64,000 nucleotides of DNA from Glandiceps talaboti (lineage: Eukaryota > Hemichordata > Enteropneusta > Spengelidae). The stretch lies in contig NC_135564.1 in NCBI RefSeq assembly GCF_964340395.1, forward strand, positions 13,272,391-13,336,390. Reading direction: 5' to 3'. Positions 5,226 to 48,977 of the stretch are shown here, piece after piece; position 1 is the stretch's first letter; every line of letters starts with the position of its first letter. A program made the position numbers and the translations under genes. A model generated the notes under the pieces. The model was not told the origin of the DNA, ran no database searches, and saw only the letters and a program-made list of their open reading frames with translations.

Positions 5226-5466
5226 TTCTAAAGTCTAGCGAGATGGAAAGTTGTCATTTGGATCGATCAGCGTGCGTGTTGTGATGGCTGTGTTTTGTGA
5301 CCTCCGTTGACCCCGTTGACTTTCAAGAACCCGGAAGTGGCAAGTCATGGTAGAGGGCGCTATCAAAAAAGGGATTGCACTGAACGGAGAAACTTCTTTC
5401 CATCTGCAACCAGATGGATACCTTCTAAAAGTTTTTCGCGTGATTATACGTTAGTAGACTCCCAAG
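5226..5466. promoter_or_regulatory. Bidirectional promoter of RBFA and TCF25
   Basis: Only about 240 bp separate the two start codons, so the two genes must share or abut promoters and 5' UTRs. The stretch contains CCGGAAGTGG at 5331-5340, a consensus ETS-family (GABPA/ELK type) site common in bidirectional housekeeping promoters. It also has several CG dinucleotides, which are rare elsewhere in the window. No TATA box is seen. Transcription start sites are not visible from sequence alone. Confidence 0.6.
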
Positions 5467-20840: not shown

Positions 20841-20898
<58 letters not shown>

Positions 20899-23387: not shown

Positions 23388-23460
<73 letters not shown>

Positions 23461-25239
23461 GACACACACACAGGCACACACACGTGCACGTGTTGACACA
23501 ATGCACATGCACACACACATGTATATACATGTGCATGTGCACTCTTGCACACATGTAGACACAATGCACATGCATACACACAAACACACACACACACATA
23601 CACACACGCAACGGGCACATACACACAGATATCACAAATCACAACACCTCTCTTTTTAAGATTTACAGCCACATGGAGGTTAAATTACAATTGTCAAAAA
23701 TAGAGGACTAAAAAACTGACCTTAGGTTCCTGTTCTGTTATTGTATCATCATCACTGTCCGTACGTCTGTCTTCTGGAGCTGATGACATTTCTGAATTTG
23801 TTTCTTCAATAGTAGGCGTCGCTACATGCATGGTACTCTCAGATATTGATTGCTGGTTACCATAGTTACAACGAAAGAGAACAATACAAAAATTATTTTT
23901 TGTGGAAATCACATATAATTTCATGCTATATCATTTTCTATAGAAGGCTTGTTATAATGCAAAAGATCATTACAAATATGCAAAAATTAGAATGATATAG
24001 AACTTGTATTTGTGTCAAGCTCATGTGATTGCAATAGGTCTTTTGAGTAATGGCCCATAACGTCAAATGAGATAAACAAATTAAATATTATTACCTGTGT
24101 CAAGCTACGAGGTTCAGCATGTCTGGATTCTCTCTCCTATAAATACATAAAAACAGAATATTATAATTGTGTGATTTCAGCCATCAAGGCTACAAAATAT
24201 ATATTTGGACAAACCTATAAATATATTGTAATTATTTATGTTATACTATACTGTTACCCATCTATTTCTACTATAATAGAAGAAACTCTTTCTCCACACT
24301 GTAACCTTTTCTCTACACTAACCTTTTCTCTACCACTGTAACCTTTTCTCTACCACTGTGACCTTTTCTCTACCACTGTAACCTTTTCTCTACCACTGTA
24401 ACCTTTCTCTACCACTGTAACCTTTTCTCTACCACTGTAACCTTTTCTCTACGCTAATTCTTTTTCTTCCACTGAACTAAATGGTCTACACTGTAACCTT
24501 TTCTCTACCACTGTGACCTTTTCTCTACCACTGTGACCTTTTCTCTACCACTGTAACCTTTTCTCTACCACTGTGACCTTTTCTCTACCACTGTAACCTT
24601 TTCTCTACCACTGTAACCTTTTCTCTACTACTGTAAACTTTTCTGTACGCTAATTCTTTTTCTTCCACTGAACTACTTTCTCTACACTGAAACCTTTTCT
24701 CTACACCACCGGTAATTCTTTTTCTTCCACTGTAACTACTTTCTCTACCACTGTACCTCCAATCAATCAATCAATATTAGCTAGACAGCACATTACATAG
24801 AATAGCTAAATATGATATCAGATATCCTACCTTCTTGAGTTCAGGTTCTAGTACTTTTCTTCTTCTCTGTTCTCTGACAGGTTTATCAGCTGGTACAGCA
24901 AGGGGTGTAGATGTAGCCACAGGATCGACCTTGACATGACCTTTGACCGGTGTCTGCATTGCTGGTTTACGAATAGCGGACTTGATTGGAGTTGTAGCGG
25001 CAGCTATTGCTTCCTGGGAAATCAACAAACATACAGTAATAATTACACACTGTACTTATTGTGACAGAGACAACCTTCGACAAATAAACCACTTGTTATG
25101 TGGTAACATAAATTCAAACAAGTTTGTGAAAATAAGGTGCATGCAGATGTCTACTTGGTATGTAACCTTTGTTCCTTATTTGAATGAAATTGGTGTATGC
25201 ATGTCAGAGATATACCTGGTCACAAACCTACACATTCAA

Positions 25240-25289
<50 letters not shown>

Positions 25290-25359
25290 ACATACACATA
25301 CATACATACATACATACATACATACATACATACATACATACATACATACATACATACAT

Positions 25360-25396
<37 letters not shown>

Positions 25397-25501
25397 GATG
25401 CATACATACATGTAGACAGACAGGCAAACAGGCACAGACACAAACAAGCAGACATGCACAAAAATATGCTGACAGACAGAGACAGTACAGACAGTACAGA
25501 C

Positions 25502-25548
<47 letters not shown>

Positions 25549-28227: not shown

Positions 28228-28286
<59 letters not shown>

Positions 28287-31200
28287 GCCTGCACAAGTCC
28301 TTGAACCATCAACGTACTTCAGTCAACCTAGCTGTATAAATGGAGACCTGGTAGGACAGAGGTTGCTATGTTTTTTTCCTAGGCAGCGATGGACTGTATA
28401 CTCCCAAGGGTGCTGAAGAAATTATATATATAAGGCCATTGTGCTCACTGCAGTTTTAAGTTGGTCCTAAAATTCATTATGTAAGGTGCTAAAAAAAATA
28501 TGTATCTTTACATACACATAATTTGATGTAAAAACGGCAACTCTAAGACAATGTCCATGATTGGTTCAAACTCATATAAGAAATGTTAATGTCTTCCATA
28601 GTACCAATGAGACAACCTGTTATATATATATATATACATATTGGGAAAACAGCTACATACCTGTAAGTTGACCTGTGCCATGGAGTCTACCGTGTGGTTT
28701 CTCTAACAGATCTCTGAACTTCAACTGACAGGCAGCTACAGTTTTGTACTCAGTACCTAAGGCTTGGTGGATTTCTAACGTTGTTGATTCCTTCATTAGA
28801 TGATGTAGGAAGAAGTCATCCACTGTCACAATGTACTGTGATGTGAATTCAAAGCCTGGCCTGTAAATATAGACAACACAAAGATATATATCAAAGCTGT
28901 GAGAATGAATGTTTCTGGATCCTAGGTTTATGTTAATCATAATAATTTTGCTACTCACAGAGTAACAAAATTATGGAGAATAATCACAATTTTTTTTGCT
29001 GACAAGATAAGGAAGATAGTTGCATAGTCCAAATTATGATATTGCCTTTTTTTTTAAATCTGAATAAATTCTCAAATAAAAAACATCTAGTATTGTATAT
29101 ATGTTGATTTGAGTGGTGAAATGAATATTAAATTACTCTACAGTATAGTTTGATTAATGCAAATTTACTTTCTCTATGATCTTAATGTCAGTGACTATTC
29201 TGGAAGCACCAAAAAATAGTTAATTTATAAAATATATCATTTTTTCTAAATGCAACTTACTTGTCTCCCTTGACAACAGGGGTAGACTGAACTTCAAATT
29301 CAAAGAATTCATAGGTCACAAACGACGATGGTTCATTGTCTCCCATTTCTTTGAGGGCTTCTCGACTATAGTTGATCTGTTAAAAGTAAATACAATGTGA
29401 ATATCAGTATCAAACCTGTACTAGCTGTAACTGGGATAATTTCTTTTTGATCAGACAACCAACAATATATACACTGAAAATTGTTAAAATATCAGTAATT
29501 ACACATTGTACATTTTACATTGTAATTAGAGGTCCATTTTATCCATATGTGTAGTACAGTAACACAGGTTAAATTCATGATTGTATTGGGGCATGTTGAT
29601 TTTAGGGTGAGGACCTGAAAATCAATTTAATTGGATTTATTGCACCATACTATGTGTACTGCTACACAAATATGTATCTCCACAGGGGATTCAATACAGT
29701 TCAGGGTGTACTGTATTTACAAGCATGTCAATTATATCTAAGAAAACGGTTCAAACAAAATAATCCAGTTGCAGCTAGTACACCTTCAAGTGCATTTATT
29801 CACTTTGCTGCTATAAATATTATAATGAAGTCATTTGTTTTAATCTTTACTGTATGTCCATGTATGGTTTATCACCACAACATGTCCATATATGGTTAAT
29901 CATCATAACATGTCCATATATGGTTTATCACTACAATATGTCCATATATGATTAATCATTATAACATGTCCATAATATGGTTTATCACCGCAACATGTCC
30001 ATATACGGTTAATCATCATAACATGTCCATAATATGGTTTATCACTACAATATGTCCATATATGGTTAATCATTATAACATGTCCATATATGGTTTATCA
30101 CTACAATATGTCCATATATGGTTAATCATCATAACATGTCCATAATATGGTTTATCACCACAATGTCCATATATGGTCATCTCTACAATAAATGCCCATA
30201 TATGTACATATATGTCTAAATATGGTATCAAACTGCCAGTGAATACCATCTGATATCAGAAATGACAAAAACTGTATGTTTTACCTGTTTGACATGGATC
30301 TCAAATACATTCTGTCCTCTCTCCAGTTTTATACTTTCATCAATCTCATCATATTGATCATCATGCTGTAATGAGAAAGGAAAATGTGTCTAAAATGTCA
30401 GATTTATTGTCAAAATGAAAGGTTCGGTAAACTTTTAAAACTGCAGCCAACAATTCGTGATAGGGTTCACTTTGAGCAAATCATAATTATTTACTGTACT
30501 TTTTGCTAAGGTTTTTGGAACCCAGGTAACAGAGAGTAGCAATCTTGTAAAGCATTTATAGATTTTCAAACCAATAAAAAACTTTGTAAACTCAGGTAGA
30601 TTTTACTCTCTACCCTGACTTGTACTATTCTGGGTTAATACTAAAAATCAGCATATTTTCCCACATTTACCTCATCAATGAAATCTTTCATCTTGATCTG
30701 TTTGGTACCATAGGCCACATCTCTGAGTTGATGTTCCAATTTCTGAAAAGTCAAAAAAAACATGTTTATCACAAAAAGGATGTGAAATGACATCTACATA
30801 AATAATATTCATGTTTTGCTGACAACTTGTAATATAGTACACTGGAATGAATTTTTAATAGTGTACAAAAAGCTAAAATATATTCCCAGCAGTAGTAAGT
30901 ATTCCACAGTACTTATTTTTATCTATACTGAAGGTGTATTTATAACCCTACCTTGATTCTAGCAGCTCTGATGTCCAATAACTGGGCATATTCTTCTAAT
31001 TTAGTGTCATATTCCTTCTTGTAGTCCTCCAACCGTTGTGTAGCACTCTCTACTTCCTGTTGATAATCTCGGTTTATCTTATGTTGTAATATCAGCATAT
31101 TTCTAGTTTTCTCTAACTCTTCAACAGTTTCAGCGTGTTCTGCTTGTAACCCTACAATTTGTTGCTTCAGATCTGTTGAAATGCAAAAAATAATGTATTA

Positions 31201-34200
31201 AAATGTGATAAACAAAATACTTACCTAGGTAATAATGGTATGTGCCAGTAAATCCATGCTTACAGCAAGAGCCCAATGCATTTGATTGAACGCATATGCT
31301 AATATTTGTTGGGCAATACCATTATTACTCAGGGGTTTAGAGCATTATATACTCATAGGCTCATACATGATGAATTCTTCTGAAAGTGTATGTTGTAATT
31401 TACAATTCAAACTCTGGCAGTGGATTTAATTTGCAATTGCAGAAACAATGGATATTATATTACCGGTACACTACCATTCTGACCAGCTATGAAACAATGG
31501 TTCGATCTAAGGAAAGATGCATCACCACTCTCACTGATTTCAAATTATCTACAACATACCATTGCTATAAAACCATTAGCCACTCTATGGCAATGCTTAA
31601 CACATGCCCCCTCAGAGATTCAAGTAGAAAAACACACTGATTTTCATATCAAAATGCAAAATGCAACAAAAACAGTAATAGTTGGTGTAAGTCTTAGCTT
31701 GTCAGAACTAAAACTCCCCACTATCTTACAAAAAGTAAATTTATGTGTCATAGCATTGTATTCTTACCCTTGTTCAATTCTTCATCCACTTTCTCTAAGA
31801 ACTCTAGTTCTTGACTTCCCTTCTCCTTTCGTTTCTGAGATAAAAAAAAAAGAAGGAAATTATGAAAAATAATGCTTACAATGGTTCATAGTATTTTACT
31901 GTCAAATTTATCATATTTAAGTATGTGTAAATCCATAGTGGCAAAATTGAACTGAATATCATACACCAGGATATTCCAGCTACCTACTTTGTAACTAGTT
32001 TTACAAGACTTGTCACATACATGTGAGGTGTATGTGAGGTGCCCAAGATAAACGAAAAGTCTGATGAATTTTTTTTTTTCATCATTTATACCTTGACTAA
32101 GATCAATGCTTCCTCTAATTCCTGGAAGTCGACAGCACTTTCCTTGGTGAAGAATTTCATCTTTTCCTGTAGCTCATCCAACTGTTGTTTTGTGGAATAG
32201 TACCGGATTTGTATCTCCCTGTGTTCCTTCTCCAGCTTCTCTCTGGTGTCTATGGTGATGAAAAGACAAGAAGTAAAAGTAAAGAGGCAATGAGTTGAAC
32301 TACGACTGAAAGATGACTTGGGAAGAACTTTGTGAATTTCACATACCTATTTTTGTTGTACATTGCATATATGTACATAAAATACCATCACTAAGTGATT
32401 AAGGTCATTCTGTTAGCTGTGATGGTATTATGCCACACACCACAACAAGAGAAAAAGGTGACAGCTAAGTGATATACATTATCTAGAAGTATCAGGTAGT
32501 CACATAAAGACATATCCATTGTCAAAATTCTCTCATAGTTCACTGATCTGCCCAAGTGTGAACAATTTTCTTACTATTTAATTTTTCATGACAAAATTCA
32601 TTCACAATTTTTATTTTTTATTTATTTTTTTGATCTTTTTAAATTTTTTTTAAATTATTATTTTTTTTTTAAGGGGGGGGGGGGGCGGTCTAGAGAACAA
32701 TATAAAGGACAGTTAATATTCTGATGTTAGTTAAGAATTCATACGATTTTGCCTGTGAACTTGAACTCTGCCTAGTGCATAGTTCACATATTATTAGTTA
32801 TATAACATCATGCAATTGATGAATATCCAATACAATTTACCTCTTTCATCTGTCAGTTTATCCAGAATGGTATTTTTGTCATTCAGATCTCCTTTCAGAG
32901 TGGCCTCTAGTTGTGCTATCTGCAATTTCAACTGTTTATCATTGGCTCTGTACTGTCGTTCTCTCTCTGCATCAAATGCACTGTAAAACAAACATTTCAA
33001 ACAAAACACTGTATTAAAACCCATAATTTCTGTCAAAAAGTTAAATTATACCATGCACAAGCACAGTTGAACACATTTGAACAAAAAATATGGGATTAAT
33101 ACCAAGTTCATTCAATCTCATGAAAACATGTATCTACATCACCGGTTCTGCAGAGCTCGACAACTTTTGTACCCTACGAAGGGCTACATTTTGATCCAAG
33201 GTTCTCACATTAGAGTTACCTTTATATATCGGAATCAGTGCAGACATAAGGACTACATTGGACCAACTTGTTCTATCGCTCTGTCAGACAAGTTGTCCTT
33301 TATAGATCTGGCCATTTACTATTCATTTCATCAACTTACCTGTTCAGCAGTTTTTCATTAGCCTCTTTCAGGATTTCCTTCTCTCTATCCAAATCAGCAA
33401 TTCTTTCCTGAAACTGTAGCAGAAATAAATTTGTATCATTTGAGAGAGTATTTTGATAACTTACTTTTAAAAACAATAAACTTTTGTTACATTTATATTT
33501 TCTCTCCAGACATTGCAACTTAAACTGATGGGGCAGTTGATTGTCAGTATTGGCACATAGCAACTCAATATTAGCACATGGCAACATAGTGGCAGAACAG
33601 CAACACAGTAATACCACATAGCAACAAAGTGTTGGTACACAGCAACATGGTGGCAATATATGGCAGGAAATGGCTATCTGTATAACATAACATAGCATAA
33701 CATAACATACACCATAACATAACAACATAACAAAATAACATAACATAACATAACATATCATAACATTATGATTATATATACCTCAATGAGTTGTCTCTGT
33801 GTGATAGTTCCACTCTTCAATTCACTCTGTAAACCCATAGATCTGTTTTGTTCCATCTGTAGTTGTCTGTTTAGTTTATCCATTTCAATCAACACAGCAT
33901 CATGGCTTCCTTTCACTGTCCTCAGGTTCTGAATAAAGCAAACATATAAAGTCATATCATTCAAGATAAACTCCATACAAATCAGTTCTCATGGAAAGCT
34001 AAGATGATATTTGACCTGTGACCTACCAATATATAAGTAACATAGACACAATATTCTGAACCTAAAAATGGGTGAGGAAACATGTACTTTATAATGTAAA
34101 CAATGTTATCAGTAACAGAATGTAGCCTGACTCAATGACAATCTCACTACTATATTACTTGCTGTAAGTGTAACAGAGGGCTACTTGGCTCAACAATTAA

Positions 34201-34577
34201 ATTACCGTACAATATTGTTACATTTAATTCACGATGTCTGGATTGATACATCTTAGTGATATTGGTACAGTTCGTGGTCTAGCTATACAAATAGTTACAG
34301 ATCTTGCTATTTTCATTGTGCGGAATGTCATTATCTTAGAAGATTGTCACTTTAAAAATAGATTGGTGGCACTCTGTCTTGGTAATCAGGTAGGATAATG
34401 ATATACACACAAAGAACGTGTAGTAGAAATCTTAGTTAGATTTAGCCAGATGAGGAAATGTAGAAATGTTGGAAATATTTTTGTCAAGACAGTCAATTAA
34501 ATGAAGCAATGTTACTAATATAAGACTTCTGTTAGATGGCACTCTGTTCAGGTGAAATACTTTTTTTACTGTAATTA

Positions 34578-34652
<75 letters not shown>

Positions 34653-34684
34653 AGGCAGACAGACAGACAGATGGATGGAGAGGC

Positions 34685-34716
<32 letters not shown>

Positions 34717-37700
34717 GGAATCCATTAATATACATAGTCTCTCTAGACAGTTCCCATCAAGGCTAATAAATTGATTAATCTCCATCAATACTTACATCTT
34801 CCAGACTTTGGTACTGAGCTTCCATTCCAGTCAATTTAGTAGATTTCTCTTTTAGTTCTCTCTGTAGTCTAATCAACTCTACATTCTCTTGTATATTAGA
34901 CCTTAGGTAGAAAACAAATCACATCATATCACATCACTGGTAATCAACGCTGGGGTTATAATTAGTGGGTACTGCATAAACACTGACATTAGTTGTATCT
35001 ATACCGATAGTCAACAAACACATGCAATGATTTCATAATGTTAGTTTTTATGTAAACATTCGATGCAGATTACAACTACAGACATCAGACCATGGACAAA
35101 CAGAACCTGTTACAAACAGGGAAAGTAAACAACTGAATTGGATTAATAACACTTGGCACATCATGTTGGAAATATAGAGACTTGTATTACATTCCATCAT
35201 TTGATATGAACAGTTTTATGGCCACTTTACGCAAATTTTCAGTTCCCCTGGCATTTCATGTACACATACATAGACCATAAAACTGTTCTTATCAAACTAT
35301 GATATGTAATACAAGTCTCTGTTGTTCCAACATGTTGTGTCAAGTTATTAATCCAATTCAGTTGTTTACTTTCCCTTTTTGTAACAGGTTCCGTTCATCC
35401 ATGATCTGATGTCGGCAGTTATAAGTGAAAAAAGGTATCTCTGGTTTGCCATCATTCAAAACCCATTTACAACTTAATCAGTATTTGCATGGGTTAAGTT
35501 GATTATGCTGGTGATATACTTCAAACTATACATTGTGAACTAAGCAGCACTGTACCACATACAATATAATGTGGTATGTACTAAACAAAATATTAACCAA
35601 AAGTGCTCACCAACTCACATTATGCGCTCATTAAATTACCATATACTAGTACCATGAAAACCAGCATAATTGATAAATTATGAGACCACCAAGTAATTTA
35701 GCAATCAAAACAAGTAGTGTTTTCTATTACAGTAACAGCACAGTCCAAAATAGGCTAACAAAGTCAGTGACATAAAACCAGCACAGTGGATATTGTGCTC
35801 ACCAAGTCACATTATGGCATGAAACCAGCACAGTCGATAATGTGCTCACCAGGTCACATTATGACATGAAACCAGCACAGTGGATAATGTGCTCACCAAG
35901 CGACATTATGACATGAAACCAGCACAGTGTATATTGTGCTCACCAAGTCACACTGTGACATAAAACCAGCACAGTCAATAATGTGCTCAATAAGTCACAT
36001 CATGACATGAACCCAGCACAGTGGAATAATGTGCTCACCAAGTCACATTATGACATGAAACCAGCACAGTGGATATTGTGCTCACCAAGTCACACTGTGA
36101 CATGAAACCAGCACAGTGGAATATGTGCTCACCAAGTCACACTGTGACATGAAACCAGCACAGTGTATATTGTGCTCACTAAGTCACATCATGACATGAA
36201 CCCAGCACAGTGGAATAATGTGCTCACCAAGTCACATTATGACATGAAACCAGCACAGTGGATATTGTGCTCACCAAGTCACACTGTGACATGAAACCAG
36301 CACAGTGGATATTGTGCTCACCAAGTCACATTATGACATGAAACCAGCACAGTGGATATTGTGCTCACCAAGTCACACTGTGACATGAAACCAGCACAGT
36401 GGATATTGTGCTCACCAAGTCACACTGTGACATAAAACTAACTCGGTGCAATTATTCTCAGTACCATGGTATTACCTGAGATTAAGACGTTGGTATTCTA
36501 CATAGTCAAAACTACTGAAGGTACATAAAAACATTAACATACAGTTACATACATACATACAACATGACAACATACAAAGCCCTAAGCCAAAAGACCAAGA
36601 CAAAGAAAACTGTTTCTCATTCTGCAGTCCAAATTCTGTTACCTATAAGTTCAGAACTGTAGTTAAGTCTTATATATCCTATGAACTAATAAACATTGAG
36701 AAGGTAATCAACAATTTGAAATGAAATGAGATAACAGATTTCTGTCTTCAGTCTTGAAACTTGACAAATATGGTTTCATTCAAGATGCAAGCATTACATG
36801 TAGATCATGCATGTACAATTGTATGTAAACATGAAACATAAACAATACAACAAGAATGGTGGGTACTTGGGTAACAGGAACTAAAACACAAGATTTAGAT
36901 GATTCTTTTTTTTACAAAACTAAGCCAATCTGTCTGTCTCTGCTACATGTGCAAATCTAAGTCTCTACTATACTAGGTGCATGCATACCAATTGTACATA
37001 CAGTTTGGCTTTGGGTTGTGTCTAAATTTTGAAATCTGTTTATTGTAAAGTACACTATAATTGTACGTGAACAGAGTATCTAGTAATTACACATTATGTT
37101 TGAATAAATTCATCTAAACCTGTGAGGATTGAGTGATGGGAAGAAACACACGGTGTACCAGGGTGCAGCAATCCTTGCAACAATGTTGCTTGTAATTATC
37201 ACTCAGTGTACAGGGACTTAGAACTTTGTCTTGACATGCAGTGACAGCGGACTCCACACACGGTGTACAGGGGCATAGCATTTTGTACATCTTTGGTTGT
37301 GACAGGGTAATTATTACGTGGAATTTGTACAGCCAACTAGCCATGCAGTGACAGAGGAATCTACACACGGTGTACAGGGGCATTGCATTTCGTACAACTT
37401 TGGTTGTGGCTGGGTAATTATCACTCAGTGTAAAGGGATGTGGGATTTTGGACATGTAGATCTATGTAGCCATGCAGTGACTGAGGAATCAACACAAAGT
37501 GTATAGAGATGAAGTATTTTGTTCAACTTCACTTGTGACAGGGTAATTGTCATGTGAGTGTTCAGGGACTTTAACAGAATTTTGTTTTACCATGCAGTGA
37601 CATAGGAATTATCACTCTGTGTACAGGGGCATAGTATTTTGTAGATCTAGTCATGGAGTGACAGAGGTATCAACACACGGTGGAACAGGGGCATAGCATT

Positions 37701-40700
37701 TTGTACGACAACTTCATTTGCGACAGGGACATGGGATTTTGTACATCAATCTAGGCATGCAGTGACAGAGGAATCAACACACTGTGTACTGGGAACGTAA
37801 CACTCAATACAGGAACATCACACACTGTACAGGAACATAACACTGTACAGAAACATCACACTGCACAAAAGCGAAACATGTACTGTATGTGTACAGCACA
37901 TCACAAGTAGACAAGGACATGTAGGAAGGAACGCTAACTTACTGTGCCTTGTGTCTATAGGAAGGAAAATCATGCATAGGAAAAGAGAAAAAAACTAGTC
38001 AATACTTTACTGATAGCGTTCACACATTTATCACCCTAGACATATATAAGGCTACTGGATAATGAAACAGGATCACTATGTCACCAACGATTACATTTTA
38101 CAAGATGAGCTAAAAAGTAAGTTTATTCTACATAATTACACAGAAGCAGAACGCTGTAGTACTTGTAGGTTATATTAGAAGTCACAGTAACAATAAAGAC
38201 CCCCTAGTCTTATGGGTTTGTATCTGTCTTACAGACCAATTATTCGATCACTTGTTCTTCAATGAGTGCTTTGCACACTCTATGAAGTGTAAATTTGTTT
38301 GATTTCATTCTTAGAATGTATAATATCTCTCCCAACATGATGATCTTAAATTCTAGTTTGCCCATCTTCTATCACTTTGTGTGCAAATAAATAAATACCC
38401 CTCTGGTAGAGAGAGGGTCAATATAAAGAAAACATGGTATTGCAGGTCCAGGTATGGCTTTTTATTGACTTATTTCAATGATAGATAATCTCAGCTGTAT
38501 GATGTCATCTGAGGTCAGTCACATATTTTCTGATACATAATTTACAGTCAAACTCTGTTGGAACAAACTCAGGTTAACTCGAACACTAGTCAAAGGTACA
38601 ATCTTATTTCATTGTTACCAAAGTAAAGCACAATGTCAGAACGAACTCACTCATAGCCAACATTTGTTGACAACGAACAGATTTTCCATTGTGATGTATG
38701 TTATATTACATGTAAGTAATTCATTTGTACTGTAGTGACACAGTGTGAAAATTGTGAAGGCTCAGTTTTTTTTTTGAAACTACTTCTTACATTATCAACA
38801 ATTGTATCATTATGAAATAAACAGCTATACATTAATTTCTATAGCGTTACAGAGTATTGCCTTACCTCTGACCTGCTGACATCTGTTCTCGTAACCGTAG
38901 CAACTCATCATCATGTTCCCTGTTGCGTACATCCATCTGTAGAAATATGAGTGTTAAATAGACAGCAGTCAATTTCTGAAACAATTGAAACTCATTTGCA
39001 TAAAACATGAATATATTATCATGTAAATGAGTCCTGCTGAGGATGAAAACTTGGTGAGAACACTGCATTATTTATTGTCTATTTGTGTTCTATGATAAAA
39101 TGTTGAGATTGATTTGTAATCTAAACAATACCTGTTCTTTCATCATATCAGTATCGTGTTCCATGATTTGTATCTGGTCTTGTAGTTGTCGGATGTAGTC
39201 ATCTCTGAAAAGACAATACAAAATTATAGTAATGTGAAAAAGTTGGTATTTACAAGATTGGGTTAACAGATCTATGCCAGGAGTATATGAAGTCAGAAAT
39301 CTGCAGTCAAACACTTACAGCTGTTTGTTTTCAGCTCTGGCTTCTTCCAGTAAACTGTGTCCGTATCTGGGCAAGACATCATTTCTGAATGCACGGGGGG
39401 TGGCAGACCTAGAATACAGTAAGACAGTAAGATAAACAGTTATCATGTGATTATGGTGAACATGGGGTGGCAGACCTAGTGATACATGATAATGAAGACA
39501 GTAGGATAACAGTAGGTTAAACTGTTATCACATGATTTGGTGTGAACAGGGGGTGGCAGACCTAGAGATACAGTAAGAAAGTAACATAAACAGTTATCAT
39601 GTGAATATGGTGAACAGGGGGTGGCAGACCTAGAGACATAAGGAAGAAAGTACTAGGATAACCAATCATCGTATACTTGTATATGTGATATGTAAAGTTC
39701 ATAGTGACAGCAATTTGGTGATTTCTACATGCTAAGCAGTTTACAATCCATTTGAGTTACACATATAGTAGTGTGAACCATACCCTTTGGCTTTTCTAAT
39801 GTAGTCAATTAGCAAATGAAACAGTATACTTTTACACTTGATATGAATGCTATAAATGATTGTGGTACAAACAGAAAATGCTTTACTTTGGTGTTATGGG
39901 TTGTAATTTGTTGAATTCATCAAACATCAGACTTACTTAGCACCTTCTCCCTGCACTCTCAATCCTTTCTTCAGTCTGTCTGATTGTGGTGGTGGTTTGG
40001 GACCTCTTCCCTATGGTCAAAGAAGATGAAATGGTTATTATCAATCCAACTACTATACAGGTATAACTTGCAACATAGCTCTGTTACATATTCTCAAATC
40101 TGAATGTAATTCTGTAGAAGTGTGTGGTTGTGTTTATGTGTGTATTCAACTGTATGAAAAAATCACATGGCGCAATTCCAAATAAAATCAATCAATATAC
40201 ATAATCAAAAATGAATATACTTACTGTGTCAACCCTGGAATGTACATATGTGTATGGATCATTTCGCTTGCCCTGTGTTACAAGTTGTTGCTTGGTTACC
40301 ATCAGCTGTAGAGAAAAGAACAAATTATAGCAGTGATATAGATGTTTGTGATCAGAGCGATCATCAGACACATAGACAGACAGACAGACACACAGGTGGA
40401 CTGAGCCAATTGTATTATGCAAATGTCCTCTCAGGGGAATTTATAATGATATCGCTAGCAACAATGTATCAGTAAGTAACATATGACTCCACAAGATGGT
40501 GATCATTACACTAGATTTCATATTATCTCTTTCTTGACTAACTTAAGTGGGCTGTCAAATCTAGCTTTACATCTGAAGTTAAAACAAATATAAACAACTT
40601 TGCCCAGAACAGAAAGTTGCTGAGTTTGAAAACACTGAGTATTGACTAGATACTGTACCTTGTTTTTCAGTTGTTCATTTTGTTTTTCAAGTTCTCTGAT

Positions 40701-42469
40701 TTTACCATGCATATCTTCTAACATTTCCTCAGTTTCCACATCTCTCACTTTGCCACCAACGTCAAGGTGATGGGCTTTCTTCTTATCATTCACAAGACGT
40801 AACAGCTTAGTTGCCATTCTACATAAAACCACAAGAAAATATGATAAGTTTGCCATAAATTTTTGGAGGTAAGAGGCAAAATGTGCATTTTAAAGACACT
40901 TGTAGTCACCATTTTGTCATAACACTCAATGTTTGCAAATTAAAAGGAAAACGCCAGTAAAGCTTATTTCTACCTTTAGTACACTTGCATTGAGTACTGC
41001 TATCAACTTACCAATACACATGATTTTTAGTGATATAGTACCTCATAGACTGTAAGATACATCTTGTCATTCCGCCCTCACTGGCCTCCTCTCTCAGAGA
41101 AGTGAGAGGGGTTGACCAATGTGTGTGAGGGTGCCCCATCAAGGTGTACCTGCCAGACTAAGTATCAACTTGTACAGAAACACTACTGCACTATACTCAA
41201 TTCTCGCTATCTGCAATACAATTCTATGCATCGCTAAGGAGTCAAATGGAACGCAGTCTCGCGACCGCGCTTGCATTTGTCAACACCTACACTTCCGGTC
41301 GCCTATGTCAATACATGTGAATGTTTCTTCCCAACAGTTTAATTTGTAACAAATAAGATAAACGCAAGTTTTAAGCTCATATAATTATAGAGGTGGGAAA
41401 TTTGAATATGTACAGTATCTTTCAAGAGCAAAATTACAAGAGATGTCTACAACTGAAAATGGGAAAGAAACATTCCTGTGTATTAGCATAGCCAACCGGA
41501 AGTGTAGTTGTCGACATTAGAACGCGTTGTCGCACAACTTCGTTCCATTTGACCCCACAGTGATGTGTAGAATTGTATTGCAGGTAGCGAGAATTGTATT
41601 CCAACTCATCAAAATAACTTATACGTAATCTTAGTTTTACATACCGTTTGATCTTGTCTTCTTGTTTTCTTGCATGTTTCTTTAGCACCAAGTTTTCTTC
41701 ATATAATCTGAGATACTTGTCTTCCAACTCATCTCTACCCAACTTAGATATAGCTCTTCTTTGCTGCCCTTGCTTGTGTTCACCATCAACTACAACATAA
41801 CAATAACAATGAAACATATATCCAGTAGGGGGGTATAATGAATAATGCACATAAGTATTGATATAATGAACAATGCACATAAGTATTGATATAATGAACA
41901 ATGCACATAAGTATTGATATAATGAACAATGCACATAACTTGATAAGTAATGGTGGATGAACAATGCACACATACTGTATTGGTACTGTAGAATGAACAA
42001 TACATAAATACAGCATCGGCACTATGATGAATACAGTACTGACAGACTTGATAAATAGTCAATGCACATACACCATTGTAACAAATGATTCGCATATTAC
42101 AATGCAATACAATTATAAGATTGACAAAAGTAAATTTGGATTTGGACTTAGATTGCAATGTGATATCATATCATACGCTAAGTTTTACTTGCTGTTTGAT
42201 TTCTGAAGTTTTATTTAATAGTTTGTTGTTCAATAAAGCAAGCAGAATCGATTATAAACAACCTTGAAAATTATGCAAACTTATAACATGTCTTCCCATA
42301 CACACATAATCCCAACATTATTGCTATTTTTTGTGCACAATAAAAATGTAGAACTGATTTAACCATACTTACTTCCTTCGTCATCATAGCCACCTCCATA
42401 TTTGGATGGTGTGTCTCTTACTGGTAAATCATACGCTGTTTCATCGGTGATGTAGGGAGGACCAGGCAT
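19240..42469 (-). CDS. RPGRIP1L: RPGRIP1L, ciliary transition-zone protein (33 coding exons)
   Basis: Exons (high to low): 42469-42373, 41789-41645, 40818-40659, 40305-40225, 40010-39937, 39408-39319, 39204-39132, 38936-38866, 34901-34796, 33928-33782, 33413-33340, 32980-32841, 32249-32092, 31834-31768, 31172-30952, 30742-30671, 30365-30285, 29376-29261, 28860-28661, 28063-27969, 27720-27558, 26950-26796, 26359-26234, 25693-25583, 25013-24831, 24136-24095, 23852-23721, 23179-23113, 22519-22347, 21413-21221, 20759-20675, 20269-20136, 19355-19240. Every junction is GT-AG and in phase, giving 1315 aa. The start [17 protein letters not shown] and [20 protein letters not shown] match vertebrate RPGRIP1L. 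Residues about 35-590 are coiled coil. C2 domains lie near 610-730 and 790-930 ([19 protein letters not shown]). A Pro/Asp/Glu-rich linker follows. The C-terminal C2-like RPGR-interaction region is about 1141-1315 ([25 protein letters not shown]). In vertebrates it scaffolds the transition zone with NPHP and MKS proteins. Domain content alone cannot separate RPGRIP1L from a pre-duplication RPGRIP1/1L ancestor. Confidence 0.95.
19541..20130. repeat. 28-bp C-rich array filling the last RPGRIP1L intron
   Basis: About 21 units of TACCACACTACCCCTCCCAG plus TTCATCCC occupy most of the intron between CDS exons 33 and 32. They stop only a few bases from the donor of exon 32 (20131-20135). On the transcribed RNA each unit has GGG, GGG and GGGG runs. 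Confidence 0.95.
20823..21165. repeat. (GATA)n/(CATA)n/(CAGA)n compound microsatellite
   Basis: Long GATA blocks interrupted by GATC, then CATA with GCAT steps, then CAGA and CACAGA. They fill nearly all of the RPGRIP1L intron between exons 31 and 30. Confidence 0.95.
21822..22265. repeat. 19-bp octamer array flanked by an 88-bp direct repeat
   Basis: Ten or so units of ATTGTATGCAAATTTAGAC lie at about 21995-22195; about eight carry an exact ATGCAAAT. A direct repeat (GTCAACCAACAGTTACATAA and ATGTATGGCAATGTGATG) brackets the array at 21822-21909 and 22177-22265. Intron of RPGRIP1L. Confidence 0.8.
23389..23610. repeat. (CA)n microsatellite with CA/CG variants
   Basis: An uninterrupted CA run at 23392-23456 followed by degenerate CACA/TGCA sequence, in an RPGRIP1L intron. 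Confidence 0.95.
24290..24760. repeat. 20-bp array CTACCACTGTAACCTTTTCT
   Basis: More than 20 units lie between RPGRIP1L exons 26 and 25. Two longer blocks (TAATTCTTTTTCTTCCACTG) recur at about 24455, 24650 and 24713, showing later block duplication. Confidence 0.9.
25240..25555. repeat. (CA)n/(CATA)n/(CAGA)n compound microsatellite
   Basis: CA, then about 80 bp of CATA, CA again, then CAGA. It ends about 28 bp from the donor side of RPGRIP1L exon 24. Confidence 0.95.
25870..26115. mobile_element. Degenerate dispersed element (TTAAGGTCTGGTAACC family)
   Basis: TTGTTAAGGTCTGGTAACCC and two copies of ACAGGTAGATTTTACC-like sequence match segments near 30495-30620 and 58090-58240. This suggests remnants of one non-autonomous DNA element family. 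Confidence 0.35.
27275..27360 (-). mobile_element. tRNA-derived SINE fragment
   Basis: On the minus strand TGGTTGAGTGG (A box) is followed about 28 bases later by GGTTCAAGCCC (B box). It lies in the RPGRIP1L intron between CDS exons 21 and 22. Confidence 0.6.
27852..27940 (-). repeat. Intronic copy of the RPGRIP1L exon 21 acceptor and exon start
   Basis: TCATGTATCCCCAGGGCTTT and AATTCTCTCCTATAATCAAA here match the true exon edge at 27694-27733 (TCATGTATCCGAGGGCTTTA, ATTCTCTCCTGTAATCAAAA). In the copy the acceptor AG reads as TATAG. Confidence 0.8.
28335..28480 (+). mobile_element. Second copy of the 3063-3315 SINE-like element
   Basis: ATGGAGACCTGGTAGGACAG, GAGGTTGCTATG and TGTATACTCCCAAGG match the copy at 3063. 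It lies in an RPGRIP1L intron just after a (CAGA)n run (28225-28288). Confidence 0.45.
29855..30235. repeat. 28-bp array of CArG boxes in an RPGRIP1L intron
   Basis: Two alternating 28-bp subunits (GTTTATCACTACAATATGTC and GTTAATCATCATAACATGTC) each lead into CCATATATGG or a close variant. Exact CCATATATGG lies at 29886, 29914, 30056, 30084, 30112 and 30167. Four CCATAATATGG variants and single-base variants fill the rest. Confidence 0.9.
33570..33775. repeat. AACATAGCA and (ATAAC) repeats
   Basis: GCAACATAGTGGCAGAACAG-like units grade into CATAACATAA pentamers that end at the donor of RPGRIP1L exon 10. Confidence 0.8.
34567..34720. repeat. (CA)n then (CAGA)n microsatellite
   Basis: About 75 bp of CA followed by CAGA units, in the RPGRIP1L intron between exons 9 and 10. 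Confidence 0.95.
35070..35427. mobile_element. Foldback element with ~150-bp arms
   Basis: The left arm (AACCTGTTACAAACAGGGAA, GTAAACAACTGAATTGGATT, GAGACTTGTATTACAT, GAACAGTTTTATGG) recurs inverted at 35275-35427. About 54 bp of loop separate the arms and the mismatches are few. It lies in the 4-kb RPGRIP1L intron between exons 8 and 9. No coding capacity. MITE-like. Confidence 0.75.
35760..36440. repeat. 47-bp array with GTCACACTGTGAC palindromes
   Basis: About 14 units of GTGCTCACCAAGTCACACTG followed by TGACATGAAACCAGCACAGT and GGATATT. Units alternate between GTCACACTGTGAC and GTCACATTATGAC forms. Confidence 0.9.
37100..37860. repeat. Degenerate long-period repeat with GGTGTACAGGGGCATAGC
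   Basis: Blocks CATGCAGTGACAGAGGAATC, ACACACGGTGTACAGGGGCA and GTGACAGGGTAATTATCAC recur about five times with variable spacing. Same intron as the previous two arrays. Confidence 0.7.
39395..39640 (-). repeat. Tandem copies of the RPGRIP1L exon 6 acceptor and exon start
   Basis: The true edge, TGGCAGACCTAG in plus orientation at 39401-39412 (acceptor CTAG then GTCTGCCA), is repeated at 39468, 39554 and 39622. Each is followed by a shared intron block (AGTAAGATAAACAGTTATCA). Spacing is 67, 86 and 68 bp. All four copies keep the CTAG acceptor. Confidence 0.9.
39774..39912. mobile_element. Half copy of the 8037-8298 foldback element
   Basis: GAAACAGTATACTTTTACAC, CTTGATATGAATGCTATAAA and GCTTTACTTTGGTGTTATGG match the right arm at 8205-8298. 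It is in an RPGRIP1L intron, close to the exon 6 edge copies. Confidence 0.6.
41041..41155. repeat. Dispersed repeat, inverted copy at 45845-45950
   Basis: GCCCTCACTGGCCTCCTCTC and GACTGTAAGATACATCTTGT match the complement of the copy in FTO intron 3. Both are GC-rich compared with their surroundings. Family unknown. Confidence 0.6.
41198..41596. mobile_element. MITE with ~136-bp terminal inverted repeats
   Basis: The left arm 41198-41333 (CAATTCTCGCTATCTGCAAT, AGTCAAATGGAACG, CTACACTTCCGGT, GAATGTTTCTTCCC) pairs with the right arm 41460-41596 in reverse complement. Internal sequence is about 126 bp. No ORF. It lies in RPGRIP1L intron 2, immediately left of exon 2 (41645). Confidence 0.8.
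41820..42060. repeat. 28-bp array in RPGRIP1L intron 1
   Basis: Units of AATGAACAATGCACATAAGT and ATTGATAT: four near-identical, then diverged, starting about 30 bp from the acceptor of exon 2. Confidence 0.85.
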
Positions 42470-43010
42470 GGTGGTAACTCTGTTCAACCTCCTTATCTTC
42501 TAAATGAGTCTGTGAGAATTAACACAATATTGATTGTGATTATTATATGAAGAACTGGATTTTATTCCTATTAATCTTTATGTAAAGGGGCATAGTCTAG
42601 ATATGAACATTTTTTCTACGTTATTTGTATTTCCCATGAAAAATGTTATTCTTCTCCCTGAAATATTGACTTTGATATGCCTTTGAAAGATGTTATTTGA
42701 CTGGCTGTAACTGTTCCACTTAATATTGAACTATGGGCCAACCTTATATCTGATTCTAAACAAATCGAAGCCATATACTCACTCAGTCTGGCTTAGTTCA
42801 CTTGAAAAGGCTGTATGGAAAAAATTAGATTCTTAATGATCATGCATGTACATGTAGGATCCACACTGGAGTTATTGACACAAACAACAAGCACAAAACC
42901 CTACTATAAAATAGCTCTGCTTACAAATGGCTTGCTGAGGTGGGTCAGTGACTTAATTCTGTACCAGCTATTGTAACAGTTTCTCTGTTTTCATTTGAGT
43001 ACATTGTGAC

Positions 43011-43065
43011 CCCCCCCCCACCACCACCACCACCACCACCACCACCACCACCACCACCACCACAA
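43011..43065. repeat. (CCA)n microsatellite
   Basis: A C-run followed by about 16 CAC/CCA triplets in the first RPGRIP1L intron. Confidence 0.95.
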
Positions 43066-43770
43066 AAATTGTATTTTGATATACTATTAGCAAATCTTCT
43101 ACTTCAATGCAGCAGGAGTTTCATCTACTGTATCTTCAGCAGTATCACAATGGTATCTAACAAACTTTCATTGAGACTTTGAAACCATACCCTTTTATCA
43201 GATGAATCACAACCTGGTATAACAATATACACAATGAAGACTTACTATTTGAATTTACTGAGATAGCCATTTTTAAATTTTCAACACAGGATTATTTTTT
43301 TGCTTCACTTTAATATTAGATCCTAAAAATCATTGATTATTAAATCATGTCGTAGACATGAGTTATCAATGCATGGTATATAATTTTTATGATATTACGT
43401 GTATTAGCGGAACTAGGCAGACCTTCAGTTAGAAAATTTGCATAAACTTGTTGGCACTGTGCCTAGCAACTTTTGAGCAGGCAGTAGTTGCCAATGGAAA
43501 GACAAATTAGAGCTGTTTGCAGCGCAATTTTACATAGACAATTATACAATAATGCACACTAGTATTTATAAAAATACATTTACGAGATAGCTGACGCGAA
43601 CTCCTGTATGAAAATAATTTCTATAGAGTCAGAGGCTACTGTATCGATACCATTCATAACGTTACTGCAGTGCATGCCATAGCCTCATAGGTTGAACATT
43701 TAAATCACCGAGTAACGGATCCGTGATATCGATTCCTGTATACCGAACAAAATGCAATGGCAATACTCAC

Positions 43771-43850
43771 ATGTAATCTGAACAAGTTACCATAAATATA
43801 GTGAGGTTGTGGGCGCTCAGCTTGCAAATCAATCTGTCTTGTCTGATATG
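43771..43850 (-). other. RPGRIP1L: Probable RPGRIP1L 5' UTR exon (left edge is the donor)
   Basis: A strong donor, CAGATTACAT followed by GTGAGTATTG on the minus strand, sits at 43771/43770, about 1.3 kb upstream of the RPGRIP1L ATG. Matching acceptors lie just before the ATG: CTCATTTAG at 42500 or TTCTCACAG at 42510. This implies a noncoding first exon spliced to 42499 or 42509. The right end (start of transcription) is a guess. Confidence 0.45.
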
Positions 43851-44040
43851 AGTTTACAAATCAGTTTATGAACACTTATAACGACCACAACAAAAATTTC
43901 AGGTCGCGAGCATGCGCAGATATTCGAAGCGACCAACATGCATTTCGTGACCCGGAAAGAGATTATCAGCTGAAAGTTCATCGGAGGTAAACAAACGTAA
44001 ACACGCATCGTGTTGTAAACAGGGTTTTCGTGTGATCGTA

Positions 44041-44064
44041 ATGCGATTGCAAGTTGATTTCTGA
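44041..44064 (+). CDS. Possible 7-codon upstream ORF in the FTO 5' leader
   Basis: ATGCGATTGCAAGTTGATTT starts at 44041 and the frame reaches TGA at 44062-44064. The next base but one starts the FTO ATG (TGA-A-ATG). It would be a short reading frame ending directly before the main start if transcription begins upstream. Whether it lies in the mRNA is unknown. Confidence 0.3.
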   Translation: MRLQVDF

Positions 44065-44065
44065 A

Positions 44066-47000
44066 ATGTCAAAACGGGAATATGAAAACCAGGAGGTTCA
44101 GAAGAAAGCAAAGGTGAGATTACGAGTAATCATATGTATTTTTTCAGACATGTGAGCCATTTCGATATGCATGCAATATGTGATCCCGGGTATGTGATGT
44201 CCCATTACAATTTACATGTAGTGATAAAAACACAATAATTTACTCTGGTGTGTGGAAAATGTTTTTATTTTTATTTCTTCTTTTTTTAACAGAAAAATAA
44301 GTTACTTGATGATTTGAAGGAAAAGGGTGCAAAGTTTTTGACCCCATTGGACGAAGAATATAAGAAAGTGGTAAATAGAGATGATTGTAATGTATATTTA
44401 CACCCAACATGCTCAATATATCTTTATTTATAGATAGACACAATTTTATTTTCTTCCTCTTGTGATTTAGAAACAGAAATATTTCGAACAAATCCCTTGT
44501 CCTTCAGTAATAGAGTGGAAGAACAACTATGTGTTCATAACTGAAAACTACTTTCACACCTAAATTTACATATTAAAGCTAATTTTCACAGATGATAAAC
44601 TTCCCTTTGCAAAATTCCTTTCTGATACATGTACATTAAGAGATACCTTTCCAGTGCATAATGTATGTTGTTACTTGTAATGTTGTTACATTTTGTCTTA
44701 GTATGTACCATACTCAACTGTAACTACCATGGTTTCCATAGCATGGTGTAATGTGATGAAGTGTGGGTAACTGGCAATTGGTATTAGTAATATGATATTA
44801 TTTCAAGTTATTACAGATGTTTTCAGTCATGGCTCATCATCAGTGTAAAAACTGCACATTACCATAGATGGATGAAATGTCATGTTTTCCTTCATTTGCA
44901 TCTTTATTCTATGTATGCCAGTTATCATATATACAATGTTGTTTTTCAGGTTGAGGAAAGCTATGCAAATTTATCACTTCAACAGAGTAATGAAATATGT
45001 CGTGACTTACGTGACAGAGTTGAGTGGGCTTTTCAAGTTCTACTCTCGGAAGGTTACCTGTATCAGGATAGGGTCAAACTAAAATCCAGGACAGTTATCA
45101 CACCTGTATCAAGAACACTGATCGGTCAACCAGGCCTTACCTACAAATATCTCAATCTGAGACTGTTTACACTCCCATGGTGCTTTGGTGAAAGACCACC
45201 CAGGAATGAGGTAGAAGAAGCATGTGCTGTGTTCAAGGATTTAAATGACTATTTTTGTCAACATGTGAAAGACTTGATAATCAAGAAATGTGCAAAACTA
45301 AAAATTGAAGACAGCAAAAGTGTAGATTTACATCAGGATGATATAGGAAAGGAAACACGGCAAGACAATATAGACCAGTTGATTGAAAGGAATTCAAAGT
45401 TTACGGTGACTTTGTTGAATTATATGGATCCATCTTCTGTACATATGAGATGTGAACCATACTATAGTATGGGTAGATTGGCTGTCAGTTGGCATAAAGA
45501 TGAAAATTTGATGACTGGATCAACAGTTGCTGTGTACAACCATTCATGTCAGGAGGGTGAGTGTTATATATATATCAAACATTCTCATATGAACTCACTG
45601 GGTCTATGCAGTGTTCTTGTGTAGTCAAGGAAGAGGAAAACTGTGTAGTGTTCGTGTTTTGTTACATGTAAGAAGAAGAAAAGCTGACCAGAGCAGGGAC
45701 TTTAACCCAGGCACTCCTCTGATCACTAGATGGATGCACTACTAAGAATGCTATGTCCAATGAATTGTTGCTAACATACAAACAGTGGGGTACACCTACA
45801 TGTACCATGCTCGTCATCTCACTTACCATGCTGTAGTCTGTAAAGTAAGCCATGACGGGGCGCCCTCACACATCAGCCAGTGTGAGAGGAGGCCAGTGAG
45901 GGCAGAACGTCACGACGTACCTTACAGTCTAACCATGCGGCAGCGTACCTTTTGCTTGCCTGTTTATTGTCTATAGCATCTTTCAAATTTTGGCCTAAAA
46001 CCTCAGCTCTTAGACTAGTACTTACTAGAGTAGCCCTTCCAGTTGTCAACGCATGCTGGGGAGGTTTTAGTGCCAGCCCTGTGATAGCCTAGTCTTAAAT
46101 CATTCTTGTGAGTTGTGCTGAGCTGTTAATTATTGTCAACAATTGTATGTTCTGAAGCGGAAGTTTATGCCGTCTACATGTACATGTACATAGACTTTTT
46201 ACTAAGTAATCTTGTTTGTTTCTATTTATTGATATCAGAATCTCTAGCATGTCAAGATGATGCATGGAAAGTTGGTTTGAAAGTAGCCTGGGATACTGAA
46301 ACCCCAGCCATTGCTGTACCATTGTATAATGGTGATTGTTACTGTATGTTAGATGGAATGAATGATACCCATCAACACTGCGTTGTGGCAGGGACAGCAC
46401 CACGGTTTAGTTCAACGCATAGAGTTACAGAGGTAGGTACATACGTGTGTAGCACCACAGTTTAGTTCAACGCATAGAGTTACAGAGGTAGGTACACAGT
46501 AAGCCAAGATATTCCCTCTCCTACCAAGTCAAGTGGGTGTGAAACAGGACCATAACCTGTAGTGTTGATAGTATCATTTCTTGTTTAATTGATTTTGTTG
46601 GGTGTTCTAGATCTGTGACTATATGAGGCTCAATATGAGACAAGCCTCAGATTGCCCTCCAATCTGAATCTGATTCTGAATCTGAGACAAACTTCTATGA
46701 GTTATAAAATTTTATTCACCGTTAACATTCCTGTGGATGTGTACAAAATTTAAATGTCGTTGTTCTATGTAGTTTCCACTACCTAAAGTTTGTACTTCTG
46801 TGTTTCAGAGTTCAACAAGTACATTATCATATATACAAAGACAGGTTGAAGAAGCACTTCAGAATATGAATCAAGACAATGATGGTGAAGAAGAACTCAA
46901 GTCACTTAATGTGGAAATACTACAGTTGACGGAAGAAGTTCACAATGAGGTAAAGATTATCAAATTTATTTTGTTTTCAAACAAACCCTTTAACTTTGGT

Positions 47001-48977
47001 TGGAAGAAAATAAAAATGTAAATCTTTTGTCCTTGGAAGATATATTTTGGTAATTAGGAAGATAGCAGTTGGATGGCAAGCTTATAATGATGTAAATTTA
47101 TTCAAAAATGACACCTAAGTGACATACTAGTCCTGGGTCACAAAAAGATCATGAAAGTCGACGTTTGCACACAAATTATCCACCTTTCAGTTGCCATCTG
47201 TTGACAAAGGTTGTTTGATGCAGGGATGGATTTCTTTCATTCAGAGTTACACCTGCATATATCATAATGTTATTCTTTTGGAAACAGTTAAGTTTTGTCG
47301 AGACCATTCAGTTTTCATTTGTATGTTTATACTGTATATCTACATTACTACTGCTAGGTTGAGTTTGAATGGATTCGTCAGTTCTGGATGCAAGGTGTAC
47401 AACATGCTACAGAGAGAGAATACTGGATAAAACCAATGGAGGATTTAGAAAGAGATTGGAAAAAATTAGAATTAATGGTGAGTACTAACCATTTCTATGT
47501 TGGCTATGATAAGATGACAGTTGCACATATCTGTTGGAGCCAACCCAACAACATCACATTTTAGTCTCCATATGCTATGACACCCTCTAGTGGCAGTGAA
47601 TGAACAAGGCTAGAGGTTCTAGTCGAAAACTTCCATAAATGCTTTCATATTTGTAGTTGTGTGACATGTTTCAGAATGCGTATATATGTATCTTTGTACA
47701 CACTGGCAATCAAACACAGGAGATTACTTGACATTCTTTCCTAGTCATTGCATAGTTTTCACAATTTCTTGATAAAGTCTGCTGATGTGTAAAACTAGTC
47801 ACAGATTCAATCCATATTTGTACTTTTACTGCTGATAGTTTTCACATCTGACAGATTGTAAATTTGTTAATATGATACATAATAATGGGATCACTTTTCA
47901 TTGATTCACTGCCTGTACTCAGAATCCTATCCAGAATCACCCATAGGAAATGAAAATGACAGAAAGATACCTCTTACTATTATAGCATTGAGCTCATTAA
48001 CATTGTTGTACTGATATTGGGTGGTGTTTGTGTTATTTCCAGACTAAACTAGCCATTGATGTAGTGCTAGGAGAGAACAATGACAAGGAAGAAATAGTTG
48101 CAGCAATTTTACCAGAAATAACCGAACGACAAGAATTACGAAATCAATGGATGGCAAGGTTAGTTGGGGTCTATGTTACAGATCATATGTAAGCTTTGCT
48201 CTGATGTAAGAATGTACCTAAAGGCACTTGTCAGGATCTCATTATCCTGTGAAATACATAAATATTTAATGGTATTTTGATTGTAGGTAAGATCTGGAGA
48301 GTGGTGGTTATACTTGCTTTTAGTGAACTTAATACTGAATACACCTGTCCAGGGATGTACATATAAAGCTGATAGCCAGCAAAAACAACCAGCCACTCCA
48401 CAATTTTTAACCGGCTACTTTTTCAAGGATTTGTGTTTAAAAACCGATATATACCCATTGCAAGGCAAATTCATGCATCTCCCTTGTAGGTATAAACCAC
48501 CTACTTTTCCAATTGTACCTGTTACCTTTAGAAATAGCTACATTCATGCAGCTGTTGTGAATGTGCATGAATCCAATATACGCGACATCTGGTAAAATGT
48601 TGTATCACACTTCCCACTGACGTTATTTTCTTGGACTTTACACACAATACTGCCATGATGACAGCCAATATATGTATTGGAAAACTATGTAGTGAATCTT
48701 AGCCTCATAAACAATAGAGTTGCTTGTGTGAGATAGTTGAACACAATTACTAATTTCTTTCCCTGTAGCTTTATTTCTCACGTTGATAAGTTGTTATCTC
48801 TTTTCTGTTTGCTATAATTTGTATAGGTTTACTGGAGAGGAGCTGTGTAGAATACCAGTTGAACACACACCTGATTACAGACCACATTGGACAAAGATAG
48901 ATTCATCTCTACCGTTACCATTTGATTTGACTGATGTAATTGTACAGTTACAAAGTATTTCAGAACCGACCTCATAG
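44066..48977 (+). CDS. FTO: FTO, Fe(II)/2-oxoglutarate RNA demethylase (8 coding exons)
   Basis: Exons are 44066-44113, 44293-44370, 44950-45556, 46239-46432, 46809-46949, 47358-47477, 48043-48158 and 48827-48977. They are phase-consistent and give 484 aa (human 505). Diagnostic motifs are [19 protein letters not shown] (Arg97 and Tyr109, equal to human R96 and Y108 of the substrate pocket) and [16 protein letters not shown] supplies the iron ligands His224 and Asp226, with Glu227 as human E234. [20 protein letters not shown] supplies the third iron ligand His291 plus Arg300, Ser302 and Arg306 (human H307, R316, S318, R322). The C-terminal helical domain starts near residue 310 ([13 protein letters not shown]) and ends [10 protein letters not shown] near the C-terminus. 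All catalytic residues are present, so activity on m6A or m6Am is expected by homology. The acidic loop of human FTO after the first HxD strand is shortened here. It is head to head with RPGRIP1L. Confidence 0.95.
45655..45765 (-). mobile_element. Possible tRNA-derived SINE fragment
   Basis: On the minus strand GGGTTAAAGTCCCTGC resembles a B box and CATCTAGTGATCAGAGGAG a diverged A box region. It lies in FTO intron 3, next to the dispersed repeat at 45845. Confidence 0.35.
45845..45950. repeat. Dispersed repeat, inverted copy of 41041-41155
   Basis: GAGGAGGCCAGTGAGGGCAG and GACGTACCTTACAGTCTAAC are the reverse complement of the copy at 41041, with several CG to CA/TG differences. Confidence 0.6.
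46397..46498 (+). repeat. Duplication of the FTO exon 4 end and donor
   Basis: The exon end AGCACCACGGTTTAGTTCAA, then ...AGAGTTACAGAG and the donor GTAGGTAC, is repeated 55 bp on at 46451-46495 with one difference (CACAGTTT). The second donor at 46488 is as good as the first. Confidence 0.95.

Follow-up and report, generated by a model that had tools for sequence, protein, structure and literature searches.

The most familiar human obesity locus among those defined by common variants is located in an intron of FTO and is reported to act on distant IRX genes. Was this layout assembled in vertebrates, or was it inherited from an older ancestor? We addressed this question with a 64,000-nucleotide stretch of the hemichordate Glandiceps talaboti (the window; contig C17, 13,272,391-13,336,390) that carries FTO beside RPGRIP1L, and with searches of the genome to which it belongs (590 Mb in 47 contigs), the single genome examined. 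The query sequences were human FTO, RPGRIP1L, part of RPGRIP1, TCF25, a human-type IRX and a fragment of Drosophila Sowah. A codon-based exon scan proved weak, with hits of about score 15 consisting mostly of simple repeats and a reversed control yielding about two thirds of the real hit count; from it we kept a piece only where its homology or context was recognisable. We found an FTO gene in a divergent pair with RPGRIP1L, followed by SOWAH and IRX. Our favoured explanation, to which we assign a probability of roughly 65%, is that FTO was inherited vertically, that it and RPGRIP1L make up a divergent pair, probably served by one CpG-rich bidirectional promoter, and that the pair lies within an ancient Iroquois neighbourhood.

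The FTO gene is intact and compact. All seven introns have GT-AG borders, the reading frame runs uninterrupted to a stop at 48977, and the gene occupies 4.9 kb, with introns of 179-682 bp that sum to about 3.5 kb. Both diagnostic FTO domains are present at nearly full length: the N-terminal catalytic domain (Pfam FTO_NTD, E=1.3e-84, profile positions 1-274 of 275) and the FTO-specific C-terminal domain (FTO_CTD, E=7.6e-41, positions 2-169 of 170). A phmmer search against PDB, whose query contained a short spurious exon that fell outside the alignment, returned 12 distinct sequences at E<=0.001, every one of them named FTO (best E 7e-117), and NCBIfam yielded no families for FTO. Identity to human FTO is 45.2% (215 of 476 aligned residues). 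Searching the genome with the FTO_NTD profile gave two matches, both to exons of this gene, and revealed no second FTO copy. Two candidate coding segments were rejected: an extra short exon between exons 2 and 3 (44471-44530), spurious by collinear alignment with human FTO, and a 102-residue open reading frame (48287-48595) that is intronic in FTO and has no Pfam match. We also observed that the 3' end of exon 4 and its splice donor are duplicated in tandem (46396-46441 and 46451-46496; 46 nt, 98% identical, spacing 55), which provides a second possible donor.

Alignment to human FTO allowed us to compare active sites, using human residue numbers and roles. The Fe(II) ligands H231, D233 and H307 are retained as H224, D226 and H291, and the 2-oxoglutarate contacts N205, Y295, R316, S318 and R322 as N199, Y279, R300, S302 and R306. 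The substrate pocket keeps R96, Y106, Y108, L109, V228, S229, W230 and E234 (human numbering). The claim in the original prediction that all iron, 2-oxoglutarate and pocket residues are present held for the first two groups but was slightly overstated for the pocket, where human H232 is replaced by lysine (K225) and human I85 by leucine (L86). Judged by its sequence, the enzyme looks functional, and from its conserved active site we would expect Fe(II)/2-oxoglutarate-dependent demethylation of N6-methyladenosine (m6A) and N6,2'-O-dimethyladenosine (m6Am).

An FTO gene in an invertebrate assembly could in principle be vertebrate contamination or the product of a chimeric join. We consider this next to negligible because the gene is the sole FTO match in the genome and sits within a 24.1-Mb contig. 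The sequence around it is even in composition, the gene's identity to human FTO is modest, and the neighbouring genes are about equally diverged from human. Moreover, hemichordate FTO is already in print: Salzberg 2017 (PMC5422933) lists, in its Table 2, a Saccoglossus kowalevskii FTO (ALR88588, bit score 342 to human FTO). This entry contradicts the survey, echoed in the original prediction, that limited FTO to vertebrates and some marine algae, and which is now outdated. The Saccoglossus entry is likewise a hemichordate FTO; it differs in being, in the part of the paper that lists it, a protein match without a gene neighbourhood.

The neighbour of FTO at the present locus is RPGRIP1L. Human RPGRIP1L gave 18 tblastn rows. 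Of these, 17 are collinear: they span positions 41760 to 20137 in descending order and correspond to human residues 39-1278. The eighteenth (E=0.19) is a cross-match between the two C2 domains. Residues 160-258, 295-364 and 900-1148 of the human query had no tblastn match. Pfam C2-C2_1 matched at 28656-28970 (E=4.6e-20) and, below the cut-off, at 26724-26987 (E=8.5e-5), and RPGR1_C matched at 21180-21464 (E=1.3e-18), at 20137-20268 (E=1.1e-16) and weakly at the last recognised piece (E=0.061). The coiled coil, C2 domains and RPGR1_C are found in the expected order, and a genome search with RPGR1_C returned two matches, both inside this gene. For the nine main pieces matched by both queries, RPGRIP1L outscores partial RPGRIP1, as expected for a gene older than the RPGRIP1L/RPGRIP1 duplication.

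FTO on the plus strand and RPGRIP1L on the minus strand stand head to head, with start codons 1,596 bp apart. Gene models, Pfam and tblastn together bear out the prediction of an intact FTO paired in this way with RPGRIP1L in a non-vertebrate. The interval given for the pair, 42373..48977, ends correctly at the FTO stop; its start is the inner edge of the first coding exon of RPGRIP1L, and that gene runs on to about 19252. With an intact divergent pair embedded in a chromosome-scale contig of a non-vertebrate, we agree that the FTO-RPGRIP1L arrangement is probably older than vertebrates.

Two further genes downstream turn this pair into a conserved neighbourhood, in the order RPGRIP1L(-) FTO(+) SOWAH(-) IRX(+) (Table 1). 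The window reaches into the 3' part of SOWAH, where the ankyrin exon matches Pfam Ank (E=3.4e-6), as does a second ankyrin exon just past the window end (E=2.5e-5); the last recognised piece was placed by eye and has no Pfam match. The gene extends over about 78 kb to a winged-helix-like piece that lacks a Pfam match and resembles the Drosophila Sowah fragment (E=2.8e-8). About 19 kb separate this piece from the first IRX piece; the two genes are divergent and adjacent in cis, and the exon scan detected scarce other coding signal surrounding IRX. Downstream of the IRX homeodomain is an Iro-box-like motif. The genome contains 14 Homeobox_KN matches; among the 12 with loci inspected by eye, the one on C17 alone is IRX, and the two outside this inspection score about 29 bits versus 71. 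The distance from the FTO start to the first piece of IRX is 114,473 bp. Random placement would bring one IRX so near FTO with a probability of about 4e-4 genome-wide and about 1% within the contig. We infer that chance would be far less likely to place RPGRIP1L and FTO directly side by side, oriented as in vertebrates, than to produce this FTO-IRX proximity.

Table 1. Features of the locus. Coordinates beyond 64000 count from the window start; the C17 position is the value plus 13,272,390.
Feature	Position	Strand	Basis and remarks
TCF25	5464..15288	+	Converges with RPGRIP1L; at the block edge; both ends by eye
RPGRIP1L (pro-orthologue of RPGRIP1L/RPGRIP1)	19252..42469	-	tblastn, C2-C2_1, RPGR1_C
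RPGRIP1L, last recognised coding piece	19252-19350	-	
RPGRIP1L, first coding exon	42373-42469	-	By eye; start codon at 42469
CpG-rich patch, candidate shared bidirectional promoter	43500..44250	.	Between start codons and across FTO start
FTO	44066..48977	+	8 exons, 484 aa; splice sites and translation; Pfam
FTO exons 1-4	44066-44113, 44293-44370, 44950-45556, 46239-46432	+	
FTO exons 5-8	46809-46949, 47358-47477, 48043-48158, 48827-48977	+	
SOWAH, 3' part	61641..64000	-	Ankyrin exon at 62793-62897, last recognised piece at 61641-61961; gene continues to about C17:13411669
SOWAH, further pieces	121217-121372, 128618-128749	-	First tentative; second without Pfam match
SOWAH, winged-helix-like piece	139166-139279 (C17:13411556-13411669)	-	Match to Drosophila Sowah fragment
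IRX, first piece	from 158539	+	Weak match, E=0.002
IRX, homeodomain	159505-159750 (C17:13431895-13432140)	+	87% identical to human-type IRX, E=3e-41

Within SOWAH, the start of the ankyrin exon (GYTPLHIAAMQGQ-like) occurs three times in close succession on the minus strand (62793-63040), and only one of the three copies continues into a longer repeat. Between FTO and SOWAH, a protein-like open frame without a Pfam match (53278-53553, minus strand) may be a 3' exon of SOWAH or a separate gene.

The order RPGRIP1L-FTO-SOWAH-IRX brings together two described arrangements, the RPGRIP1L-FTO-IRX locus of vertebrates and the Iroquois-Sowah block of bilaterians. In human, one topologically associating domain (TAD; chr16:53,562,500-55,442,500) holds RPGRIP1L, FTO and the IRX genes, according to PMC4671217. 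As here, RPGRIP1L is divergent from FTO in the human and vertebrate RPGRIP1L-FTO-IRX3/5/6 locus (16q12.2), where the two are a few hundred bases apart; in contrast, the present locus has one IRX instead of three, a compact FTO, SOWAH between FTO and IRX, and no AKTIP next to RPGRIP1L. Irx-Sowah blocks are described across bilaterians, tetrapods excepted, in PMC5585340 and PMC8767184. Our locus shares with them a long SOWAH that adjoins and diverges from IRX, with little else coding nearby, and differs in having FTO and RPGRIP1L attached. A literature search found no report of FTO or RPGRIP1L attached to the Iroquois-Sowah block, or of FTO-IRX linkage, outside vertebrates, bearing in mind that spelled-out gene names, such as that used in place of FTO throughout the main text of Salzberg 2017, can escape word searches; the words FTO and Irx do not occur in the main text of the hemichordate chromosome paper (PMC11175523). 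Priority for the four-gene block outside vertebrates is unproven.

The shared neighbourhood also bears on how FTO reached this genome. FTO is said to have moved horizontally between algae and vertebrates, a proposal attributed to Crisp in 2015, and the copy here could represent another such transfer. We consider a separate transfer very improbable. Because this FTO has the same head-to-head neighbour and the same IRX neighbourhood as in vertebrates, its position is evidence for vertical descent and against algal transfer. Algal-vertebrate transfer is also rejected in Salzberg 2017 (PMC5422933), and none of 41 pattern matches in viral contigs is a relative.

We then considered what could hold the neighbourhood together, starting with the gap between the start codons of FTO and RPGRIP1L. 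Divergent genes whose transcription starts lie less than about 1 kb apart qualify as a bidirectional promoter pair. A CpG-rich patch in the gap reaches observed/expected CpG ratios of 1.07-1.31 per 250 bp, whereas the median for the window is 0.27 per 500 bp. It spans the start of FTO, and its distance to the start codon of RPGRIP1L is about 1 kb. Inspection by eye shows a good splice acceptor upstream of that codon, and the top minus-strand splice donor within the gap comes after base 43771. This arrangement suggests a candidate non-coding first exon of RPGRIP1L within the CpG patch. Because such an exon would start inside the patch that covers the FTO start, the two genes may share one promoter. 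The earlier proposal of a shared promoter is supported indirectly by the patch between the start codons, but the window contains other CpG-rich patches as well.

Our favoured explanation of vertical descent within an Iroquois neighbourhood would have two layers. A shared promoter would tie RPGRIP1L to FTO, and the IRX regulatory landscape would tie the pair to SOWAH-IRX. Breakage would be costly because of IRX enhancers acting over long distances, which likely lie in the SOWAH locus and perhaps also in introns of RPGRIP1L. The block would date back at least to the deuterostome ancestor. Vertebrates would have kept it as the RPGRIP1L-FTO-IRX locus, which SOWAH would have left in tetrapods.

Several observations weigh against this explanation. 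CpG-rich spots of similar rank occur at about 4750-5750, at 41250-41750 (inside RPGRIP1L) and at 59750-62000, and the patch in the gap is notable, not unique in the window. The chance rate for a donor scoring as well as that at 43771 is 0.4 per kb, or about 0.6 per gap. X-box (RFX) sites of the kind found in ciliary promoters matched at 10 of 12 positions at 43487 (0.2 expected per gap) and at 9 of 12 at 43458 (1.1 expected); they are not clearly above expectation, and we set them aside as too weak. The FTO introns leave little space for IRX enhancers, and FTO may have been retained for another cause; at about 3.5 kb in total they cannot hold a large enhancer array of the mammalian type, which would place such enhancers in the introns of SOWAH or RPGRIP1L or in the gaps. 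Finally, the evidence comes from one genome only.

The same small introns, which are too short for many IRX enhancers, fit a serious rival: slow rearrangement alone, in which inertia kept the order in a deuterostome genome that rearranges slowly, without any selection for linkage or any shared promoter. A within-contig probability of about 1% for FTO-IRX proximity is small yet not negligible among many gene pairs, and hemichordates and other bilaterians have widely retained the same gene content at chromosome scale (PMC11175523). Inertia alone nevertheless seems to us the less likely cause. Breaks next to the block did arise in one of the two lineages, with AKTIP and RB-type genes on other contigs and TCF25 the neighbour instead. 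In addition, Maeso reportedly described in 2012 a bilaterian Iroquois-Sowah genomic regulatory block whose linkage was already ascribed to regulatory constraint.

TCF25, at the left edge of the block, was identified by Pfam Tcf25 (E=1e-26) and by tblastn rows collinear along human residues 175-600. All three AKTIP matches fall on contig C8, and the seven matches to RB-type pocket proteins fall on C8 and C12; none of either is on C17. Because these genes are absent from C17, conservation with the left vertebrate flank, where AKTIP and RBL2 lie beside RPGRIP1L, stops at RPGRIP1L. On C8, AKTIP and an RB-type pocket protein gene lie at 21.56 Mb and 27.56 Mb, 6 Mb apart. As AKTIP and RBL2 are the vertebrate RPGRIP1L neighbours, the vertebrate RPGRIP1L region may be a junction of two ancestral chromosomes.

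With RPGRIP1L, FTO and IRX linked in an invertebrate alongside a Sowah bystander, the FTO-IRX geography would be inherited, not assembled in vertebrates, and the layout of the human FTO locus may be older than vertebrates. An extension of this idea, on which we are evenly divided, is that the obesity locus at human FTO-IRX is what remains of a regulatory domain already complete, as RPGRIP1L-FTO-SOWAH-IRX, in the deuterostome ancestor, that FTO was a captive bystander of Iroquois regulation before vertebrates arose, and that the human TAD edge beside RPGRIP1L is the ancient edge of the block.

Other observations concern the rest of the window and the genome. A minus-strand gene within 1430-5577, recognised from a piece at 1430-1795 that has no Pfam match, seems divergent from TCF25, and a CpG-rich patch there (about 4750-5750) is a second possible bidirectional promoter. 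A minisatellite at 51226-51806 has several open frames, on both strands, and is not a gene. In the mitochondrial contig (C40, 51,222 bp), a 15,435-bp unit is repeated head to tail slightly more than three times, which is probably an artefact of assembling a circle. In its genetic code, TGA is read as Trp, and ATA stands at sites that are usually Ile, for example in cytochrome b. Across nine trimmed gene bodies, a count that leaves out ND4, the ATP genes and ND6, AAA occurs twice (both in ND5), compared with 42 AAG and 90 AAC or AAT codons. We take ATA as Ile and a near absence of AAA to be closer to an enteropneust hemichordate than to amphioxus or echinoderms.

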